Source: Saprospiraceae bacterium (GTDB lineage Bacteria; Bacteroidota; Bacteroidia; Chitinophagales; Saprospiraceae). From it: a stretch of 64,000 nucleotides of DNA. The DNA is taken from the NCBI GenBank assembly GCA_022842725.1, contig JALHOZ010000008.1, positions 62,001 through 126,000 of the forward strand, written 5' to 3'. The translations under genes were made by a program, and so were the position numbers. Positions 35,380 through 61,625 of the stretch are shown piece by piece (the stretch's first letter is position 1; each line of letters begins with the position of its first letter). Under the pieces are notes generated by a model, which did not search any database, was not told the origin of the DNA, and saw only the letters and a program-made list of their open reading frames with translations.

Positions 35380-35409
35380 AAAAAAAAATGGTGACCCCCC
35401 AGTCACCAT
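35380..35409 (-). terminator. rho-independent terminator of small RNA A
   Basis: ATGGTGAC (35388-35395) pairs with GTCACCAT (35402-35409) around a six-base loop; on the minus strand it is followed by nine T. The arms match those of small RNA B closely. Confidence 0.85.
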
Positions 35410-35425
35410 CTTTCTTAGAATTATT

Positions 35426-35440
35426 ATCCCATGAACATAT
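35426..35440. repeat. 15-bp direct repeat, copy 1
   Basis: ATCCCATGAACATAT is repeated exactly at 35566-35580, 140 bases away, so that the two copies bracket the hairpin and core of small RNA A. On the minus strand each copy contains ATG codons. Confidence 0.8.
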
Positions 35441-35565
35441 CCGAATCACAAGGTGTGCAGGATCTCACTCTGAACACCGGTATATTATAACCAAAACTCA
35501 ATTTCTTTTTTTTAAAAACAGTGAGTTGTCCAACATGTTTCGCGTTACGAACAACTCACTGTTTA

Positions 35566-35580
35566 ATCCCATGAACATAT
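35566..35580. repeat. 15-bp direct repeat, copy 2
   Basis: This is the second exact copy of the 35426-35440 repeat. On the minus strand it begins a 26-codon open frame that crosses the hairpin; no similar frame exists in small RNA B. Confidence 0.8.
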
Positions 35581-35642
35581 TTGTTAAAATTTTTTTGACC
35601 GATTCTTTAATCCGTCATGTAAATGTTTCATTATTTACAATG

Positions 35643-35715
35643 CAAAGATGCAGCAACATTCATCCTTGGAAAAATACAAAAAAACGTACAAATCATATTA
35701 TAAATATTCATATGT
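35643..35715 (-). promoter_or_regulatory. promoter region of small RNA A with conserved upstream block
   Basis: A -7-like CATCTTTG (35643-35650) is followed upstream, after exactly 20 bases, by AAAATACAAAAAAA (plus sense, from 35671) and CAAATCATATTATAAA. The same block sits exactly 20 bases from the -7 element of small RNA B. Confidence 0.55.
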
Positions 35716-36020
35716 GAAATTAATATACTGTAATTAAATAATATATATATTAAATAAATAAATAATAAGAAAGTTTCGTATCTGTTTTAGTGCTAAAAAA
35801 AAATATTTTTTTCCATGGATTTTTTTTTGAAAAAACAAGTCAACTTATGGTTTTTTCCGATTTACCATATTTTATTTTGCCGGTTAGTTTAATGTTTTTG
35901 CATTTAGCAATAATATTTTGTAAATTATGTAATTAGTTGTCATATATTTTGAAATAATAAAGATGTGATACCGGCGGACAAAATATTTACATTTATTTTA
36001 CAAATTTAACAAATTCGTAG
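35716..36020. other. AT-rich intergenic spacer
   Basis: This spacer lies between the small-RNA promoter block and the giant adhesin promoter. It is AT-rich with homopolymer runs. I see no gene, hairpin or repeat in it. Confidence 0.6.
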
Positions 36021-36769: not shown

Positions 36770-39700
36770 TTTGAAGATCCGATTGAAGGGCCGGAAAATG
36801 CTTGTGTGGGAGAAACCATTAACTTTACATCAGGCACTGCTCTTGGTGCCAATACCTATGCGTGGTTTGTCGACGGCGTTTTAGTCGATCAGGACAGAGA
36901 ACTGCCAATCGATTTTAATTATACTTTCACAACGGCAGGCACATATGAAATATGTGTTACTGCATGGCATTCACCTTGCCGTCCACTTGCAGAAAGTACC
37001 AGAACACAATGTTTTGAGATTACGATTGGCACCGCCGATGCCGGTACGCCGGTAGCGACACCTACACCACTTTGCCCCGGAGGGACAGTAGATCTGTCGG
37101 TATCCGGCCACATCGATGATCCTTATTATAATCAATATTTGGTTGTGGTAAACTCTGCGGGTATCATCGTACAGGTAATTGATGGAACCAGCGGCACTTT
37201 TACGTTCCCCAACTGCGGAGAATTTACTTTATACAGTCTCAACGCTTCAGGGCAATATATGCCAACTCCTAATCCCATGGTAGGACAACCCTGGACTTCC
37301 GTAACCTGTACGGGAGATTGTTGTGATATAGCGTCTGTGCCTTTTGAATTTGCAGAACAAAGCTCTATCACCTTTGACAATCCGCCGGCAGACCTGACTG
37401 TCAATTGTATCGATGATGTACCTCCGATGATGAGTCTTCCGTGGACAAGTGTATGTGGAGGAAGTGGAACAGCAGGTGGGGTAGAAAATGCCGGCTCATA
37501 TACACCTTGTGCCGGTGGTACCCGCACACGCACCTGGACAGTGCTGGATGGATGTGGTGAAAATTTTTCTTACGTACAAAACATCACCATCGATCCGATT
37601 CCTGTTGCTGAATTTATTAATCCGCCTGCTAATGACATGATTGATTGTTCTGAGTTGGCAGGTATCACTCACCCTTCAATTAATTATACCAATATGGCTT
37701 CCGGCGCATGTGGTATCAACGGGATTCGTCCTCCGGTCACTACAGGAACAGCCACTGTATGTCTCGGTGGTACACTAACGAATACATGGACTTTCACCGA
37801 TCAATGTATGCGGACGATTGAACACGTTCAGACCATAACCGTAACACCTTCTGCTTTACCGACCTTTGTCAATCCGCCTCCAAATATCACCATCAATTGT
37901 GATGCCCTGGCAACCTTTACCCCTACATCCCTTAGTGTAACCAATAATGATAATGGAGCTTGTTTAGTTTCCGGTACGAGTATTCCCACTCAGGTCAATA
38001 ATGCGACTGTTTGTGGAGGTACCATTACAGTCAACTGGGCATACACGGATTTTTGTATGCGAACCATCAACCATTCACAAGTGGTGACGGTAGTTCCGGC
38101 AGCTGCCCCTGTTTTTATTAATCCTCCGAATAATACCACAATTAATTGTGAAGCTCTTGCTACGTTAAATCCGACCAATCTTTCTTATTCAAATAATGGA
38201 TTGGGAGCTTGTTTGTTCTCGGGAACGAGAGTTCCGACAGTCTCAAATCAGGCAACCGTTTGCGGAGGTACAGTTACCTATGTCTGGTCTCATACAGACC
38301 AATGCAACAACACCATAAACCACACCCAAATTATTACGGTCACACCTATATTGCCTCCGGCATTTGTAAACCCACCGGCAAATGTGACCATAGCATGTCA
38401 TGAATTGGCAACCTTGCCTCCGGCCCCGACATTAGCCTTTACCAACGGAGGAAGCGCAGCATGCCTTACCTCAGGAAACGCTACACCTACAGAAAGTGGT
38501 GTGGCAACAGTATGCGGAGGTTCCAGAACATATCTCTGGACAGCTACCGACCAATGTAATAATAGCATTTCTCACACACAAACGATAACTGTAACCCCGA
38601 TAGCCCCTCCGGCTTTTGTGAATCCACCGACAAATACGACCATAGCTTGTCATGAGTTGGCTACATTGCCTCCGGCACCTACCTTGTCCTACACCAATGG
38701 AGGAACGGCTACTTGTCTTACCACGGGGAACGCCATACCGGCCGAAAGTGGTGTGGCAACCGTGTGCGGCGGAACGAGAACCTATACATGGAATCATACA
38801 GACCAATGTAATAATAGCATTTCTCATACACAAACGATAACTGTTACCCCGATAGCACCACCGGCATTTGTGAATCCACCGACAAATACGACCATAGCTT
38901 GTCACGAATTGGCTACATTGCCACCTGCTCCTACCTTGTCTTACACCAACGGAGGAACCGCTACCTGTCTGACCACAGGAAACGCCACACCAACTGAAAG
39001 CGGAGTGGCTACAGTATGCGGTGGAACGAGAACGTATACCTGGAATCACACAGACCAATGTAATAATACGATAACCCATACACAAAATATCACGGTAACG
39101 CCTATTGCACCACCGGCCTTTGTGAATCCACCGACAAGTATTACGATAGCCTGTCATGAATTGGCCACCTTGCCTGCGGCCCCTCCCTTATCTTACACCA
39201 ATGGAGGAACTGGTACCTGCTTGACCACAGGAAATGCAACGCCGACAGAAAGCGGAGTAGCTACTGTATGTGGCGGAACAAGAACGTATACATGGAATCA
39301 TACTGACCAATGTAATAATAGTATTACCCATACACAAAATATCACGGTAACGCCTATTGCACCACCGGCCTTTGTGAATCCACCGACGAGTATTACGATA
39401 GCCTGTCATGAATTGGCCACCTTGCCTGCGGCCCCTCCCTTGTCTTACACCAACGGAGGAACCGCTACCTGTCTGACCACAGGAAACGCCACACCAACTG
39501 AAAGCGGAGTGGCTACAGTATGCGGTGGAACGAGAACGTATACCTGGAATCACACAGACCAATGTAATAATACGATAACCCATACACAAAATATCACGGT
39601 AACGCCTATTGCACCACCGGCCTTTGTGAATCCACCGACAAGTATTACGATAGCCTGTCATGAATTGGCCACCTTGCCTGCGGCCCCTCCCTTATCTTAC

Positions 39701-42700
39701 ACCAATGGAGGAACTGGTACCTGCTTGACCACAGGAAATGCAACGCCGACAGAAAGCGGAGTAGCTACTGTATGTGGCGGAACAAGAACGTATACATGGA
39801 ATCATACTGACCAATGTAATAATAGTATTACCCATACACAAAATATCACGGTAACGCCTATTGCACCACCGGCCTTTGTCAATCCACCGGGAAATATGAC
39901 CATCGCTTGTAATGAATTAGCAAATCTTCCTGTAGCACCTACCTTGTCTTATACAAACAATGGCACGGCAACGTGCCTTACAAATGGTGATGTCCCCGCT
40001 ACTATCAATAATACTGCAACGATTTGTGGAGGAAATGTCATATATACCTGGCAATTTACAGATCAATGTAATAATGCTATAAATCATACACAAACCCTGA
40101 CTGTCACTCCGGTTGCACCTCCTGCATTTATCAATCCACCCGGTAATCTTACCATTCCTTGCAGTGAGGCAACTTCATATAATCCGTTGACGTTATCCTA
40201 CACAAATGGCGGTATGGATGCTTGTCTGACAACTGGTACCATATCCCCCACATTACAAGGAAATCCACCGAATATCTGCGGTAGTAATTCGACTTACACA
40301 TGGACATTTACGGATCAATGTAACAATACAATAAACCATAACCAGGTCGTGACCGTTACACCAATTGCGCCGCCTGTTTTCCAAAATCCACCGGCAAATA
40401 TTACCGTTAATTGTGATCAGGTACCGACAGGGCCGGCAGATTTAGCTTATGCAAACGGGGATGCCGGTTCTTGTAGTCTGAACGGAAGTGTTCCGGGTAC
40501 CATATCGGGCACATCAAACGCTTGTGGAGGAAATATCCAGTACACCTGGAATTTTACTGATCAATGTAATAATACCATTCAACACATTCAGACCATAACC
40601 GTTAACCCGGCACCGCTTCCGGTTTTTGTTAATCCACCGGCAAATATCACGGTATCCTGTAATCAGATACCGACTGTAGCTCCCAATTTGGAATACAACA
40701 ACAATGTACCCGGAGCGTGCTCTGTACAGGGTTTTGTACCAGGCGCCATCAGTGGTTCTGCTAATGAATGTGGCGGGGTATTAACCATAACCTGGACCTA
40801 TACTGACCCTTGTAATAATACCATTTCACATGTTCAGACGGTTACAGTTACGCCGGCTTTACCACCTGCATTTACCTCTCTTCCACCAAATGTGACGGTG
40901 ACCTGCGCCAACGTTCCGGGGATACCACCCCCTTTGACCTATACAAATAACGATATTTGTCCTATTTCCGGAAGTGTTCCGGCTGTCCAATCCGGTTCGT
41001 TTAACGCTTGCGGAGGTGTCATACAATATACATGGCAGATCAATACATTATGTAATGTGCCTTTGAATCACGTACAAACCGTAACGGTACTTCCATCACA
41101 ACCTCCGGCATGGATTGACCCTCCGGTCAATATTACGGTTTCCTGCGCAGATGCAAATCCAAATCCAACCCCGTTGTCTTATACGAATAATGAATTTGGA
41201 CTATGTGCGGTGACGGGTTCAGTACAAAGCGTCGTCAACTCAAGTTATAATGCCTGTGGTGGTGTGATTAATAAAGTTTGGAATTTTACGGATATTTGCG
41301 GAAGAAATATTTCTCATTCACAAACCATTACGGTTCTTCCATCCGCTCCACCGGTATTTACCAATTTACCTCAAAATATAACGGTATCTTGCGGTAGTAT
41401 TCCAACGTCTATATTTTTGAATTACAGCAATAGTGCTTCAGGCGTTTGTTCTATTCAGGGACAGGTATTGTCTACAGAATCAGGTAGTTATACTTCGTGT
41501 GGTGGTACGATGTTTAATAGTTGGACGTATACAGACCAATGTAACAGAACCATTTCTCATCAACGGCAAATCACCGTTTTACCGGCAGATGATCCGGAAT
41601 TTTTAAACCCTCCTGCAGATATTACTTTGGGCTGTGATGATCCGGTACCGCCACCTTCTCCTATCAGTTTCAGTAACAACGGCTCAGGATTTTGTAATCT
41701 TTTTGGTGCAGTCACACCTGTGGTTACAGTGAATGGAAATGTCACCACATATACCTACACGTGGGTTCACCCTTGTACCGGTAATGTATTGGAACACATC
41801 CGCAATATCACTTCTCCGCCCGATCCGATTTTGGTTTTGGAACCGGATCTCGATGTAGCTTGTGAAGGGCAAGGATATACACTTTCGAATATTAATGCAG
41901 TTGATTTTAGTGGCGGCAACTCTACATTTACCTATTATTGGGATATGCCATTTGAACCGGGTAATGAAATTATTGATCCGGTGATATTCCTGACTCAGGC
42001 AACAGAAATATATGTAGTTGCTACCAATGAGTTTGGATGTACAGATTTTGGATTGTTTTTGATAGAAATAGTTCCCGGACCTGAAGCAGGAACAGGATCT
42101 TCAGGTACCATATGTAGCGGAACAACAGTTAGTCTTTTTTCATATCTGACAGGTCCATATGATGCAGGTCAATGGATCCGCCGTTCAGGACCAGTTGTAA
42201 GTATTTCCAATCCAAATAATGTAGTATTTAATACACCAGGTAATTATGTTTTTGATTACAGAGTTTTGGGGACTTCACCTTGTTTGGATGACTTTGCTAC
42301 GGTTAATATCACAGTGGCCGACAGACCTGTAATCAATGTGTTACAAAAACCTTGTTCTGCCGATAAAACGACCTATGATGTTATCATATCAGCTCAGGAC
42401 CTTACAGTAACGGCCAGTTTGGGAACGGTAGTAGTAAATACCGACATGACTGTGACTATTCAGAATATTCCGGCAGGAAGTAGTGTCACCATTTCCGTTA
42501 CGAATGATATAACCGGTTGTACCAATACATTGTTGGTGAGTCCACCGAATTGTGATTGCCCGGTTGTTGCACCACCGACAAATCCTGTTAATCAATCCGT
42601 TTGTCTCGGACAACCGGTTCCGCCTTTAAGCGTGACGGTAGGTTCTGATCAGGGCGCAAATTGGTATGATGTACCTTCAGGAGGAATTGCTTTGGCAAAT

Positions 42701-45700
42701 AATACCACACAATTTACTTCTTCAAATACAGGAGTTGGGATTTATACATATTATGTTGAAAGTTTTCTTATATCCGACCCGACTTGTGTCAGTATAAACC
42801 GGGTAGCAGTCACATTGACTATCAATGAATTGCCGGGAGCCAATCCGGCAGCTATTCAGGTTTGTGATGATAATGGTGATGGTTTGGCTTCTTTTGATCT
42901 GAATACAGTAAATAATACGGTCAATGGCTCAGGAGGCCTCACGATATCTTATCACATTTCTCTTGCGAATGCTCAAACCGGGACAAACCCATTACCAGTT
43001 CCTTTTACAAACACAATTCCTTCGTTACAGACAATTTTTGCTTCAGTTGCTAATATTGAAGGTTGCAGAAGTACTTCAGAAATTATCCTGACTGTACTAC
43101 CACAACCGAATGTTACCGTTGTGACAACTGATGAAACTTGTGATAATGCTAATGACGGATCAGCGACGGTTTCAACGTCAAGTACCGGAAGTTCTTATGA
43201 ATACAGAATCAACGGAACATCTTATTCTGCTCAGACTTTGTACAGTAATTTGCAACCGGGAAGTTATACTGCTTTTGTCAGGGATGCTCTGGGCTGCATT
43301 GGGAATTTACCATTTACTATAGATCCGGGATTAATTCTGACCGTAAATTCTTTTGTATTTATATGTGATGATAATAACACCAGAACGATTGTAACCGATG
43401 ATTTTTATACCATTTCATGGAATATTACCAATAATAATAACAACTCCGGTACCTACCGCGTATTGGAAAACGGAGTGGAAATAGGTGTTTATGCATACAA
43501 TCAACAGCAATCCATACAAAGACCGGCAAACGGTCAGATATTGACCTATATTTTTGAAGATGTAGCATTAGGTTGTGAAATATCAAGGGCTACTAATGCA
43601 TTGACACCATGTTCTACTGATTGTGAAGTTATTGTCAACATTGTTTCTCAGGTTTGTAATGACAACAATACGCCAAGTAATCCTTCTGATGATATTTACA
43701 CCATTACTTTTTCGGCAACAGCCTTAAATAATAATGCCAATACATCTTATAATGTCTTTGCGAATAATGTTTTTGTTGGTAATTTTACATACGGAAGTAA
43801 TCACTCCATACCTTTGCCGGCTGATGGCACATCTCCTGTATTGACTTTCAGAGATGGGGTCAATTTGTTGTGCGAAACCAATGTTACAGTGGGTCCTTTA
43901 GTTCATTGTTCCAATACCTGCGATATTGAAATTACTCAGCTGACCAAAGTATGTGACGATAACGGAACCAATACAGATGGAACGGATGATGTTTATACAT
44001 TGACGATCAATGCGATTGCTCTGAATGCCGGTGGGTCTTCCAACCAATTCAGGGTTTTTGTCAACGGCACTGAAGTTGCTGTATTCACCTACGGAACCGG
44101 CGGCAGTTTTACACTTCCGGCTGATGGCAGTAATCCGGTCATTGAAATAAGAGATTTTGATAATGCGGCTTGTACAGATTCCAGAAATGCCGGTTTATTG
44201 ATACCATGTTCCACAGATTGTAGCATAACCATCAATAGTTTGGTGATAAGATGTAACGATGCCGGAACGGGCTCGGACAATTCTGATGATTTTTATACCA
44301 TTGAATTTTTAGTGACAGCGGTAAACGGTGCAGCAAACGGTCGTTTTGAGCTAAGAGAAAATGGAGTTTTGATCAATACATTTGCGTATGGCCTGAATCA
44401 TACGATAAATCTTCCTGCCGATGGGAATATCCGCGAACTGCTATTTACAGATAGTGCCAATGCAAGCTGTTTTGAAACCCGAACTACCCAAGCTTTGTCA
44501 CCTTGTTCGGGGGCTTGTCTGATCAATGCGGTTGTGAGCAACATTCGTTGTGATAATAATGGTACCACCACTAATACCGCAGATGACCGGTTTTTCTTTG
44601 ATCTGACGGTAACGGGAACCAATACTTCTGCGGGATATACCTTTTTGTTTAACAATACGCAGGGGACGTACAATAATGTAAGAACTTTGGGACCATTTCT
44701 GATTTCCAATGGTGTCATAAATTCTTTGGTTACGGACAACGGTTCTCCGGCTTGTACTGCTGTGGTCTCAGTGACACCTCCTCCGCCATGTAGCGATGGT
44801 TGTGCACTTGTGGTGTCAAACTTCCAGAAAACAGGTTGTAATAACAACGGAACCAATGATACCAATGATGATGACTTTTATTCTGTCAGTTTCAGAGTAA
44901 ATACTTCTTTTGCCGGAGCGACACAGTTTAATGTTGTTTACAATAGTAATACCTTCGGACCTTACAATTACGGTCAAAATGTTGTCCTTAATAATGTTCC
45001 TGCCAATGGGGTGGAATACGATTTTGTTATAACTGATATTTCAGCATCAAATTGTACCGCATCGTTCAAATCACAGGAATTTCCTTGTTCTGTATGCAGT
45101 CAGGTGGTTACGGTAAGTATTAATCCATCTATTTTGGATTGTAATAACAATGTGGCAACATTGACCGCTACCAGCAGTGCTCCGGGAGTTTTTAACTGGA
45201 CAGGTCCGAATAATTATAATCAGTTTGGTCTTGTGGTACAGGCTTCTTTCCCGGGTTGGTATTATTTTTCAGCCGTTTATCCGGATGCTTGTGAGCGAAT
45301 GGATTCTGTTCAATTATTTGCAGATGCCAATCTGCCGCAGGCTATAGGTGGACCGGACAGAAGTATTACTTGTGATGTAGAAGAGGTTACACTTGTTGGG
45401 TCAAGCAATCTGCCTGAAAATCAGGTTAGATATATATGGTATGACAGTAATGGAAATGTAGTAGGTTCTGACAAAACTTTGTTGGTGACAAATCCCGGAA
45501 CCTATTTCCTTGAAGTAGTAGATATAACCAACAATTGTACTTCCGGTCGGGATGCAGTTTTGGTGGCTGACGATACCGACCTGCCTTCGGCCATTATTTT
45601 TGCAAATCCGGGAAATATTTTGGATTGTGTCATCGCATCCGTAGTTTTATCCGGACAGCAACAAGACAATGTAATATTTAATTGGTCCTTTAATGAAGCT

Positions 45701-47104
45701 TACATTGGAAATATGTTTTCCATCACTATCAACCAGGAAGGAACCGTCATGCTGACAGCTATTGACACCATTTCAGGTTGTGAAAATACGGGAGAACTAA
45801 TCATTACGGATCTTACAGATTATCCGTCACTTTTCATTGATCCGGTTGATCCGATTACGTGTGCTACCAACAGTACGGTGATCAATGCCTCTGATTCTCC
45901 GCAAGGGCAAAATCTGGTTTTTACCTGGTTTAATGCCAACAATCAGATTATTGCAGGTCAGACGGGAAGTTCTTTGGTTGTTAATTCTCCCGGATTCTAT
46001 TATGTTGAGCTGAGAGATACTACAAATGGTTGCCTCAATCTTGATACGATATTTGTAGACCGGATCGGAGACTTTCCGATATTGGATGTGACAGATGATG
46101 TTGCCTTATATTGCGGCCCTTCACAGGCAAATCTCGAGGTGAATATTATCAATCCGACATCAGCCACCTCCATCACCTGGTCTACCACTCAGGGAAATAT
46201 TTTGGGCGGCGTCAGTGGATCAAATATTCTTGTTGAAGGTTCAGGAACTTATGTGGTAGAAGTAGTTTATCCGGTTTCAGGATGTATTACAACCGACAGT
46301 GTTGAGGTCATCATCAACACAGATGTACCGGAATCCGTTGCCACCGAAATACGCGGGGAAACCTGTATTAATGAACGTGACGGAAGTCTTTCTATTGTTG
46401 ATATTTCGGGAGGAACACCTCCTTATAATATAAGTCTGAACAATCAGAATTACGGTCAGGTAAGCGAAATCCCGTCCTTAGCACCAGGATCCTATACATT
46501 GAGAATCACCGATGCCAACGGATGTACCAAAGATACTACGTTTGTGGTTGCTCCGGGTATTGATGTGCAACTGGATTTAGAACCATTCATTGAATTGGTG
46601 GCGGGTGATGTAACAACCCTTGAAGTATTGCTCAATGTAGACCCTTCTACCATTGTTTCAGTGCAGTGGGATCCGGCAACCAACCTTTCTTGTGACACTT
46701 GTTTGATAACAGAACTGACGGCATTGGAAGATGGTGTATACGAGGTCAGAGTAACAGATATCAATGGTTGTGAAGCAACGGCCAGGATACGTGTTGCCAT
46801 CAAAGACAATGTGATCATCAATGTACCGAATATCATCAAAGGCGGAAATACAGGAGGAACCAACAGTATCTTTGTCATCAGTACCAATGATCAGGTATTG
46901 AGCATCAACAAGCTGAGAATTTATGACCGATGGGGTAATATGGTGTTTTCTAATGAAAATTTCCAACCCAATGACCCATCAGAGGGATGGAACGGGACCT
47001 TCAACGGTAAAACGGTAGAACAAGGCGTTTATGTTTACGTTATTGAATATGTTACCCGTAATGGTGTCAACATATTATCCGGAGATTTGACAGTGACAGA
47101 ATAA
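36770..47104 (+). CDS. giant repeat adhesin, main part, with T9SS type-B C-terminal domain
   Basis: This frame encodes about 3444 residues after the in-frame stop; the only apparent start, GTG at 36806, falls inside a PKD-like domain and has no signal peptide, so it is unlikely to be a true gene start. In order it has: a PKD-like domain; 18 tandem ~83-residue four-cysteine repeats (37373-41835); several Ig/PKD and SprB-like modules; six ~95-residue repeats with CDDNNT...DDxYT motifs (43345-45095); further PKD-like modules; one SprB-like repeat (GGTPPYNISLNN ... LAPGSYTLRITDANGC); and a gliding-type CTD (LRIYDRWGNMVFSN, GWNGTFNGKTVEQGVYVYVIEYV). It would be delivered to the surface by T9SS if the N-terminal part is joined. 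A strong terminator follows at 47131-47184. Confidence 0.8.
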   Translation, partial: FEDPIEGPENACVGETINFTSGTALGANTYAWFVDGVLVDQDRELPIDFNYTFTTAGTYEICVTAWHSPCRPLAESTRTQCFEITIGTADAGTPVATPTPLCPGGTVDLSVSGHIDDPYYNQYLVVVNSAGIIVQVIDGTSGTFTFPNCGEFTLYSLNASGQYMPTPNPMVGQPWTSVTCTGDCCDIASVPFEFAEQSSITFDNPPADLTVNCIDDVPPMMSLPWTSVCGGSGTAGGVENAGSYTPCAGGTRTRTWTVLDGCGENFSYVQNITIDPIPVAEFINPPANDMIDCSELAGITHPSINYTNMASGACGINGIRPPVTTGTATVCLGGTLTNTWTFTDQCMRTIEHVQTITVTPSALPTFVNPPPNITINCDALATFTPTSLSVTNNDNGACLVSGTSIPTQVNNATVCGGTITVNWAYTDFCMRTINHSQVVTVVPAAAPVFINPPNNTTINCEALATLNPTNLSYSNNGLGACLFSGTRVPTVSNQATVCGGTVTYVWSHTDQCNNTINHTQIITVTPILPPAFVNPPANVTIACHELATLPPAPTLAFTNGGSAACLTSGNATPTESGVATVCGGSRTYLWTATDQCNNSISHTQTITVTPIAPPAFVNPPTNTTIACHELATLPPAPTLSYTNGGTATCLTTGNAIPAESGVATVCGGTRTYTWNHTDQCNNSISHTQTITVTPIAPPAFVNPPTNTTIACHELATLPPAPTLSYTNGGTATCLTTGNATPTESGVATVCGGTRTYTWNHTDQCNNTITHTQNITVTPIAPPAFVNPPTSITIACHELATLPAAPPLSYTNGGTGTCLTTGNATPTESGVATVCGGTRTYTWNHTDQCNNSITHTQNITVTPIAPPAFVNPPTSITIACHELATLPAAPPLSYTNGGTATCLTTGNATPTESGVATVCGGTRTYTWNHTDQCNNTITHTQNITVTPIAPPAFVNPPTSITIACHELATLPAAPPLSYTNGGTGTCLTTGNATPTESGVATVCGGTRTYTWNHTDQCNNSITHTQNITVTPIAPPAFVNPPGNMTIACNELANLPVAPTLSYTNNGTATCLTNGDVPATINNTATICGGNVIYTWQFTDQCNNAINHTQTLTVTPVAPPAFINPPGNLTIPCSEATSYNPLTLSYTNGGMDACLTTGTISPTLQGNPPNICGSNSTYTWTFTDQCNNTINHNQVVTVTPIAPPVFQNPPANITVNCDQVPTGPADLAYANGDAGSCSLNGSVPGTISGTSNACGGNIQYTWNFTDQCNNTIQHIQTITVNPAPLPVFVNPPANITVSCNQIPTVAPNLEYNNNVPGACSVQGFVPGAISGSANECGGVLTITWTYTDPCNNTISHVQTVTVTPALPPAFTSLPPNVTVTCANVPGIPPPLTYTNNDICPISGSVPAVQSGSFNACGGVIQYTWQINTLCNVPLNHVQTVTVLPSQPPAWIDPPVNITVSCADANPNPTPLSYTNNEFGLCAVTGSVQSVVNSSYNACGGVINKVWNFTDICGRNISHSQTITVLPSAPPVFTNLPQNITVSCGSIPTSIFLNYSNSASGVCSIQGQVLSTESGSYTSCGGTMFNSWTYTDQCNRTISHQRQITVLPADDPEFLNPPADITLGCDDPVPPPSPISFSNNGSGFCNLFGAVTPVVTVNGNVTTYTYTWVHPCTGNVLEHIRNITSPPDPILVLEPDLDVACEGQGYTLSNINAVDFSGGNSTFTYYWDMPFEPGNEIIDPVIFLTQATEIYVVATNEFGCTDFGLFLIEIVPGPEAGTGSSGTICSGTTVSLFSYLTGPYDAGQWIRRSGPVVSISNPNNVVFNTPGNYVFDYRVLGTSPCLDDFATVNITVADRPVINVLQKPCSADKTTYDVIISAQDLTVTASLGTVVVNTDMTVTIQNIPAGSSVTISVTNDITGCTNTLLVSPPNCDCPVVAPPTNPVNQSVCLGQPVPPLSVTVGSDQGANWYDVPSGGIALANNTTQFTSSNTGVGIYTYYVESFLISDPTCVSINRVAVTLTINELPGANPAAIQVCDDNGDGLASFDLNTVNNTVNGSGGLTISYHISLANAQTGTNPLPVPFTNTIPSLQTIFASVANIEGCRSTSEIILTVLPQPNVTVVTTDETCDNANDGSATVSTSSTGSSYEYRINGTSYSAQTLYSNLQPGSYTAFVRDALGCIGNLPFTIDPGLILTVNSFVFICDDNNTRTIVTDDFYTISWNITNNNNNSGTYRVLENGVEIGVYAYNQQQSIQRPANGQILTYIFEDVALGCEISRATNALTPCSTDCEVIVNIVSQVCNDNNTPSNPSDDIYTITFSATALNNNANTSYNVFANNVFVGNFTYGSNHSIPLPADGTSPVLTFRDGVNLLCETNVTVGPLVHCSNTCDIEITQLTKVCDDNGTNTDGTDDVYTLTINAIALNAGGSSNQFRVFVNGTEVAVFTYGTGGSFTLPADGSNPVIEIRDFDNAACTDSRNAGLLIPCSTDCSITINSLVIRCNDAGTGSDNSDDFYTIEFLVTAVNGAANGRFELRENGVLINTFAYGLNHTINLPADGNIRELLFTDSANASCFETRTTQALSPCSGACLINAVVSNIRCDNNGTTTNTADDRFFFDLTVTGTNTSAGYTFLFNNTQGTYNNVRTLGPFLISNGVINSLVTDNGSPACTAVVSVTPPPPCSDGCALVVSNFQKTGCNNNGTNDTNDDDFYSVSFRVNTSFAGATQFNVVYNSNTFGPYNYGQNVVLNNVPANGVEYDFVITDISASNCTASFKSQEFPCSVCSQVVTVSINPSILDCNNNVATLTATSSAPGVFNWTGPNNYNQFGLVVQASFPGWYYFSAVYPDACERMDSVQLFADANLPQAIGGPDRSITCDVEEVTLVGSSNLPENQVRYIWYDSNGNVVGSDKTLLVTNPGTYFLEVVDITNNCTSGRDAVLVADDTDLPSAIIFANPGNILDCVIASVVLSGQQQDNVIFNWSFNEAYIGNMFSITINQEGTVMLTAIDTISGCENTGELIITDLTDYPSLFIDPVDPITCATNSTVINASDSPQGQNLVFTWFNANNQIIAGQTGSSLVVNSPGFYYVELRDTTNGCLNLDTIFVDRIGDFPILDVTDDVALYCGPSQANLEVNIINPTSATSITWSTTQGNILGGVSGSNILVEGSGTYVVEVVYPVSGCITTDSVEVIINTDVPESVATEIRGETCINERDGSLSIVDISGGTPPYNISLNNQNYGQVSEIPSLAPGSYTLRITDANGCTKDTTFVVAPGIDVQLDLEPFIELVAGDVTTLEVLLNVDPSTIVSVQWDPATNLSCDTCLITELTALEDGVYEVRVTDINGCEATARIRVAIKDNVIINVPNIIKGGNTGGTNSIFVISTNDQVLSINKLRIYDRWGNMVFSNENFQPNDPSEGWNGTFNGKTVEQGVYVYVIEYVTRNGVNILSGDLTVTE
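37373..41835 (+). repeat. 18 tandem ~83-codon repeats in the giant adhesin
   Basis: Each unit begins (F/W)xNPPxNxT(I/V)xC, continues with an Asn/Thr/Gly-rich stretch, and contains CGG, then TDQCNN and HxQxxTVxP; four cysteines are conserved in most units. Units start at 37373, 37613, 37865, 38114, 38363, 38615, 38867, 39119, 39371, 39623, 39875 and onward; the six units from 38363 to 39874 are each exactly 252 bases. Units starting at 39119 and 39623 look identical in DNA, and those at 38867 and 39371 nearly so, which points to a recent 504-base duplication. Confidence 0.9.
43345..45095 (+). repeat. six ~95-codon DDN-rich repeats in the giant adhesin
   Basis: Each unit contains a C(D/N)(D/N)NN/G-T motif, then (T/S)DDxYT or a variant, then an FxYGxxxxIxLPADG-like segment in most units, and ends with PCSTDC or a related pair. 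The acidic motif could bind calcium; this is an inference from residue pattern only. The six units are more diverged than the 18-unit array. Confidence 0.8.
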
Positions 47105-61376: not shown

Positions 61377-61408
61377 AAAAAAAAATGGTGGCCGATAAAA
61401 GCCACCAT
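61377..61408 (-). terminator. rho-independent terminator of small RNA B
   Basis: ATGGTGGC (61385-61392) pairs with GCCACCAT (61401-61408) around an eight-base loop and is followed on the minus strand by nine T. The same arms, apart from one base pair, occur in small RNA A. Confidence 0.85.
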
Positions 61409-61545
61409 TTTTTTCTTGAATTCCTTTGTAAATCCCTGATGAAATAAGAAGGATCTCACTCTCCTCACTTCCTTTTATAATAACCAAAAACTCTTTTTTT
61501 TTAACTTCGCACGCTTTTGTGCGACTTACTCTTTCTTTCTGTTAA
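61377..61545 (-). ncRNA. candidate small RNA, paralogue B
   Basis: This is a compact minus-strand unit of about 170 bases. A perfect -7 element TATCTTTG (61558-61551) precedes a hairpin (TCGCAC/GTGCGA near 61507-61524), an A-tract, the core motifs GAGTTTTTGGTTATTATA (61476-61493) and AGAGTGAGATCCT (61450-61462), and a perfect terminator ending at 61377. The same plan is seen at 35380-35637. No coding frame of note and no known RNA family was recognised; it is neither SRP RNA, tmRNA nor RNase P by their usual motifs. Confidence 0.65.
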
Positions 61546-61550
61546 CGATA

Positions 61551-61625
61551 CAAAGATATGACCTATATAAAGGTAAAAAAAATACAAAAAAAGATGCAAA
61601 TCATATATTATAAAATATAATATGA
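61551..61625 (-). promoter_or_regulatory. promoter region of small RNA B with conserved upstream block
   Basis: A perfect -7 element (61551-61558) is followed upstream, after exactly 20 bases, by AAAATACAAAAAAA (from 61579) and CAAATCATATATTATAAAA. The block and its spacing match small RNA A. Confidence 0.6.

Follow-up and report, generated by a model that had tools for sequence, protein, structure and literature searches.

Two loci on the minus strand of the window, the whole stretch of 64,000 nucleotides of a Saprospiraceae genome analysed here, almost certainly belong, to judge from their sequences, to one family of non-coding RNA genes, and this RNA family very probably lies outside Rfam. 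Its common feature is a motif followed by a hairpin, often repeated within a single predicted transcript, and the bacterial family bearing this module is most probably the Saprospiraceae, a group often found in wastewater and marine systems.

Two related RNA genes

The initial annotation had described two minus-strand units with the same order of parts, and direct reading of the sequence located the named parts of both. The TAnnTTTG-like -7 element that it proposed is found as such in unit 1, while the corresponding element of unit 2 begins with CA instead of TA. The features of the two units are as follows.

61377..61545 (-): RNA unit 1, of the short type (about 169 nt), lying upstream of pheT; its 5' end is deduced from the -7 element
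61578..61625 (-): unit 1 upstream AT-rich element, common to unit 2 (repeat family D14)
61585..61588 (-): unit 1 -33 element TTTG (sequence read)
61551..61558 (-): unit 1 -7 promoter element TATCTTTG (sequence read)
61507..61524 (-): unit 1 5' hairpin (fold prediction)
61476..61493 (-): unit 1 GAGTTTTTGGTTATTATA linker, kept in part within the genus (sequence read)
61441..61471 (-): unit 1 central hairpin with conserved loop UGAGAU at 61458-61453 (fold and arm-swap test)
61431..61443 (-): unit 1 family motif, reduced to a degenerate remnant, TTCATCAGGGATT (sequence read)
61377..61408 (-): unit 1 intrinsic terminator ATGGTGGC..GCCACCAT plus T9, then GCC
35380..35637 (-): RNA unit 2, of the long type (about 258 nt) and with two motif copies
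35670..35717 (-): unit 2 upstream AT-rich element, common to unit 1 (repeat family D14)
35677..35680 (-): unit 2 -33 element TTTG
35643..35650 (-): unit 2 -7 promoter element CATCTTTG (CA, not TA)
35596..35617 (-): unit 2 5' mini-hairpin with AAAG loop (GGATTAAAGAATC), also in several other long-type members
35561..35580 (-): unit 2 family motif, copy 1 (ATATGTTCATGGGATTAAAC)
about 35516..35564 (-): unit 2 long variable hairpin 3' of motif copy 1
35481..35499 (-): unit 2 GAGTTTTGGTTATAATATA linker
35452..35478 (-): unit 2 central hairpin with loop UGAGAU at 35467-35462 (fold and arm-swap test)
35418..35442 (-): unit 2 family motif, copy 2 (GGATATGTTCATGGGATAATAATTC)
35380..35409 (-): unit 2 intrinsic terminator ATGGTGAC..GTCACCAT plus T9, then GCC

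The TTTG -33 element precedes the -7 box by 26 bp in both units, and the upstream AT-rich elements are 75% identical (35670-35717 against 61578-61625). In unit 1 an A-tract lies between the 5' hairpin and the GAGTTTTTGGTTATTATA linker. The arms of the central hairpin are 61471-61461 and 61451-61441 in unit 1 and 35478-35470 and 35460-35452 in unit 2, and AGAGTGAGATCCT, at 61462-61450 and 35471-35459, forms the loop side of this covarying hairpin. It occurs at exactly two places in the window genome (4.6 Mb, 95.5% complete), namely units 1 and 2, and the reversed control at none. Both units fold better than all of 200 dinucleotide shuffles each, with z scores of -6.3 and -4.9.

The covarying central hairpin and the common upstream element go beyond the motifs named initially, as does the doubling of ATATGTTCATGGGAT in unit 2 (35580-35561 and 35442-35418), the hallmark of the wider RNA family. 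Each of the two GGATATGTTCATGGGATTATAATTTG-like motif copies of unit 2 is followed by a hairpin, the last of which is the terminator. Unit 1 is without most of the family motif and is unmatched by the motif model R2 described below. Note that TATCTTTG stands immediately before pheT; it is plausible that the genes downstream of the units carry a -7 element of their own.

Near unit 2, a giant repetitive open reading frame of 3432 codons occupies positions 36806-47104 (+) of the window. It contains 12 direct repeats, mostly at a spacing of 252/246 bp (84/82 aa), and its product is probably a surface or secreted protein.

Conservation within the genus

A covariance model built from units 1 and 2 (R1) was run on 148 relatives, with genome searches that score few candidates per genome, so that absences are soft and E-values rough. 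At E <= 0.1 it matched 33 of the 148, including the window genome and all nine other genomes of the genus that were searched, where the best E-values ranged from 9e-9 to 4e-5. By reading, both the short, unit 1-like type and the long, unit 2-like type were found in seven of these nine genomes, and in the remaining two (G001, G002) the long type alone was seen. The RNAs of the genus carry one or two motif copies each.

In the central hairpin the UGAGAU-like loop is kept across the genus and the arms differ. As evidenced by an arm-swap test on 15 of 19 sequences (L054, L055, L059 and L061, which have no UGAGA loop, were left out), the arms nevertheless still pair: the mean energy was -10.6 kcal/mol with a sequence's own arms compared with -5.7 kcal/mol after swapping, and not one of 20,000 arm permutations was as stable as the native combination. 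The genus homologues, the covarying arms, the common -33/-7 spacing in those members where the boxes could be located and the lack of an Rfam match at the gathering threshold all support the reading of the units as putative paralogous, independently transcribed small RNAs.

A motif and hairpin module across the bacterial family

The core as originally defined proved too narrow: its GAGTTTT linker and UGAGAU loop characterise the genus, and what is kept across the family is GGATATGTTCATGGGATTATAATTTG with its hairpin. This motif lies directly ahead of the terminator and often again further upstream, and it is conserved more widely than the genus features. The module consists of a 26-nt motif, GGAUAUGUUCAUGGGAUUAUAAUUUG, and a hairpin, with the terminator as the last hairpin of the series. 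The list of 36 members was drawn up without five loci that have no motif (L033, L038, L039, L057 and L060), and the motif model R2 was built from 26 sequences.

Among genomes of the family with a completeness of 90% or more, R2 matched 207 of 248, representing 88 of 100 genera; some of these genomes had supplied sequences to the model. In a sample of the phylum it matched 6 of 392 genomes, of which five, the window genome included, come from the same family and the sixth (G272, E 0.004) from another. In a sample of the class, the motif with up to two mismatches was present in five of six genomes of the family, compared with single two-mismatch matches in 3 of 389 others; the reversed motif was present in three genomes. 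By these counts the motif is at chance level elsewhere in the class, outside the family. The Saprospiraceae genome of locus L040 holds the RNA with three matches (best E 3.5e-7), and ten other genomes reached through pheT loci gave no RNA match or one weak match at 0.009. In one genus of the family, two genomes (G030 and G574) show neither the RNA nor an RRM_1 protein.

The exact 12-mer AGAGTGAGATCC does not serve as a family marker, as its five matches outside the window genome among 60 relatives look coding by eye. A plasmid search with unit 2 gave two short chance matches. A reading of the motif as a micro-ORF (ATG TTC ATG GGA TTA TAA) was abandoned because the stop is changed in many copies (AAA, ATAATAA, TTATTC).

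Tandem arrays, promoters and neighbouring genes

Arrays were surveyed in ten genomes (eight genera) chosen for their many matches, allowing up to two mismatches to the motif. There were 87 motif places, of which 73 have a neighbouring copy no more than 500 nt away and 14 stand alone (counted manually on the table), and the reversed control gave none. The 12 arrays that were read contain two to seven copies at a spacing of 99-453 nt, each copy followed by its own hairpin, and most have a recognisable promoter ahead and a terminator behind; two of them hold masked or unresolved runs of N. Predicted transcripts with two to seven motif copies, some of them degenerate, occur in at least 20 genera. 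Folding of the flanks, scored against mononucleotide shuffles, is stronger on the 3' side: the 75 nt following the motif had a mean z of -4.4, with 56 of 62 at or below -2 (25 loci, final terminators included), compared with a mean of -2.0 (n=63) for the 75 nt on the 5' side, which served as control.

Promoters were tried for 36 members, of which ten gave no -7 match and two were incomplete. In most of the 24 shown in full the -33 and -7 boxes are equally spaced; the entries for L031 and L058 are apparently mis-anchored.

Could the likeness of units 1 and 2 be accidental or that of coding sequence, with terminators unrelated to each other and AT-rich stretches beside them? The genome is AT-rich and short repeats are frequent in the window, but the homologues in nine of nine genus genomes, the failure of any of the 20,000 arm permutations to equal the native arms, and reversed motif controls that gave nothing in the array survey and background level in the class sample leave this explanation with next to no probability.

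The genes adjoining the RNAs vary between loci. Since they do, and since pheT, the neighbour of unit 1, is absent among the recurrent ones, the arrangement speaks for an RNA acting in trans. Twelve pheT loci from other genomes yielded no convincing R1 match, and pheT was dismissed as a fixed neighbour.

Of 78 loci, some of them duplicates, 18 have beside the RNA a gene whose representative matches PF03150 (di-haem cytochrome c peroxidase). In several genera (L021, L024, L026, L031, L034, L035 and others) such a cytochrome c peroxidase-like gene lies immediately upstream of the RNA, and this neighbourhood is possibly the ancestral locus.

Single modules and phages

An 18-mer of the motif matched ten IMG/VR contigs, or nine distinct ones if L138 and L141, which are near-identical, count as one. 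The viral copies are single, and in seven of the ten contigs (six of the nine distinct) a sense gene ends with its stop codon 4-23 nt ahead of the motif. Of five viral genes preceding the motif that were scanned, two match PHROG head or tail families, one matches weakly and two do not match, and the sequence 3' of the viral motif folds at z <= -2 in seven of nine. A viral scan with a 19-mer also matched three identical-looking coding stretches without the module, which we judged to be chance.

Within bacterial genomes, a single module with a terminator-like hairpin follows a small-protein gene at three places in G679 and one in G662 (L173-L176). The product of this gene begins with MKTEK, is about 74 aa long and has no PHROG match.

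These cases raise the question whether motif and hairpin might together form a 3'-end module, which a host factor would recognise as a signal for stabilisation, for processing or in connection with termination, and in which arrays would be chained ends giving nested RNAs and phages would guard their mRNAs with single modules. The position of the motif directly ahead of terminator-like hairpins, its place shortly behind a stop codon in six of the nine distinct viral contigs, the head or tail assignment of two of five genes and the four places behind the small-protein gene in two genomes all agree with it. Against it, 73 of the 87 motif places in the ten genomes surveyed lie in arrays and not behind ordinary genes, and a mere 3' end would not be expected to have a promoter of its own with no coding gene behind it. 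We consider this explanation improbable, the least favoured of the functional readings.

A possible hub for an RNA-binding protein

What the loci of many genera have in common, as read from their sequences, is a promoter layout, one or more modules, a terminator and tandem repetition. The repetition of a near-invariant motif between variable hairpins counts in favour of protein binding, so that the motif may be the recognition site of an RNA-binding protein. The trans-encoded RNA would then act as a multi-site hub or sponge, resembling CsrB and RsmZ in logic, that gathers or titrates the protein when its promoter is active, and phages with the same module in their 3' UTRs may draw on the same protein. 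We give this role of the RNA family about even chances. The viral copies argue against it in being single, as expected of a 3'-end element. Furthermore, as the RNAs of the genus carry one or two copies and little of the motif is left in unit 1, a pure sponge fits other genera better than the window genome.

The leading candidate for the partner is perhaps a small RbpB-like RRM protein. An RRM protein was present in 16 of 16 RNA-positive genomes of the family that were tested, including the window genome, whose own protein has 97 aa. It was also present in 14 of 16 RNA-negative genomes, and co-occurrence therefore does not single out the RRM protein and was set aside as non-discriminating evidence for a partner. 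The likeness of the motif core to that of FopS, an RNA bound by RbpB (PMC11697453), counts for such a partner, although this similarity is weak. In predicted unpairedness within its context the motif exceeds shuffled sequences by little (0.45 compared with 0.41, higher in 27 of 37 cases), and the two copies of unit 2 are mostly paired in prediction (0.35 and 0.39 unpaired); both results count against the hub.

Base pairing with mRNAs is a serious rival to the protein hub. The motif would here be a seed, its CAUGG opposing CCAUG around start codons, that represses translation, and tandem copies would provide several seeds. FopS and GibS are reported to have seeds that pair near mRNA start codons (PMC11697453, PMC7366714), and FopS of Bacteroides is described as multicopy, ending in a terminator and found in a phage (PMC11697453); the similarity of the motif core to that of FopS points in the same direction. 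However, a near-invariant 20-nt motif across some 90 genera would be unusual for a seed whose targets drift, and of the eight places at which the window genome, unit 2 apart, matches GTTCATGGGATTA with a single mismatch, none is faced by a convincing start codon on the other strand; at one (L065) that strand has an open frame of 67 codons. At a complementarity of 12/13, a search that covers long near-perfect pairing alone, no clear start-codon target emerged in the window genome. With E. coli rRNAs as stand-ins, pairing of the motif to 16S and 23S rRNA was within the shuffle range, and the score for 5S rRNA was reached by 14 of 200 shuffles. Taken as a whole, seed pairing seems to us somewhat unlikely.

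A motif that is near-invariant across the family and set in tandem arrays offers a handle on a protein that would organise small-RNA regulation without CsrA, and the module likewise offers one on how phages may use such a protein of the Saprospiraceae. Our literature search, with most subscription papers out of reach, found nothing on Saprospiraceae small RNAs, Saprospira noncoding RNA or the letters of the motif.

Comparison with known RNA systems

The initial annotation recognised no known RNA family, and a scan against Rfam 15 agreed, with no match at the gathering threshold in the window or in 20 homologue loci. The lowest E-value, 0.0016 for CsrC (18.2 of 61 bits), is far under gathering, as are MicC, the Phe leader, the L20 leader and other near-misses, and these disagree between homologues. 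A scan for tRNA and tmRNA found none.

With CsrB/CsrC and RsmY/RsmZ the RNAs share a short motif repeated within one RNA, hairpins between the copies, an own promoter and terminator, and in many cases the presence of at least two such RNAs in the same genome. Predicted transcripts with more than one motif copy are indeed found in many genera, and short-type members have one copy. The difference is that GGA stands in the hairpin loops of those RNAs, whereas the Saprospiraceae motif lies ahead of the hairpins. CsrA (PF02599) was detected in none of 30 genomes (20 RNA-positive, 10 RNA-negative), with E. coli, B. subtilis and T. maritima positive as controls; this makes a Csr system very unlikely and rules out a CsrA sponge in the strict sense.

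GibS (RF04182), also an sRNA of Bacteroidota, resembles these RNAs in length and in having linear conserved parts and a terminator. Its model gave 28.3 bits (E 0.044) on unit 1, far below the gathering value of 115 bits, and the similarity of the motif to GibS is within the shuffle range (p 0.30).

FopS (RF04319) comes from the same phylum and is reported to be multicopy, to carry conserved sequence upstream of an intrinsic terminator, to occur in a phage and to be bound by the RRM protein RbpB (PMC11697453). The motif core UUCAUGGGAUUA is identical to the FopS core at 11 of 12 positions, with UUCAUGG-n-AUUA in common (shuffle p 0.022 and 0.034), a sequence match that is suggestive only. It would accommodate a phylum-wide axis, in which the tandem-motif RNAs of CsrA-less Saprospiraceae titrate an RRM protein through a UUCAUGG core related to the FopS seed and phages have captured the module in their 3' UTRs so as to make use of that protein or to escape it; we regard this extended scheme as unlikely. 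The FopS model, with a gathering value of 56 bits, reached at best 31.6 bits over 20 genomes and 22.6 bits on unit 2, and at E <= 1 it gave no match in any of 18 homologous stretches. Among the 38 weak matches listed, one falls on one of these RNAs (G003, 23.2 bits), and one of 14 control genomes, presumably Bacteroides ihuae, exceeded the cut-off. Beyond the core the motif differs, and the Saprospiraceae module is repeated within one RNA with hairpins between the copies. Because the core is common at 11 of 12 positions and the FopS model yet rejects them, the Saprospiraceae RNAs are FopS-like in logic, but not members of the FopS family.
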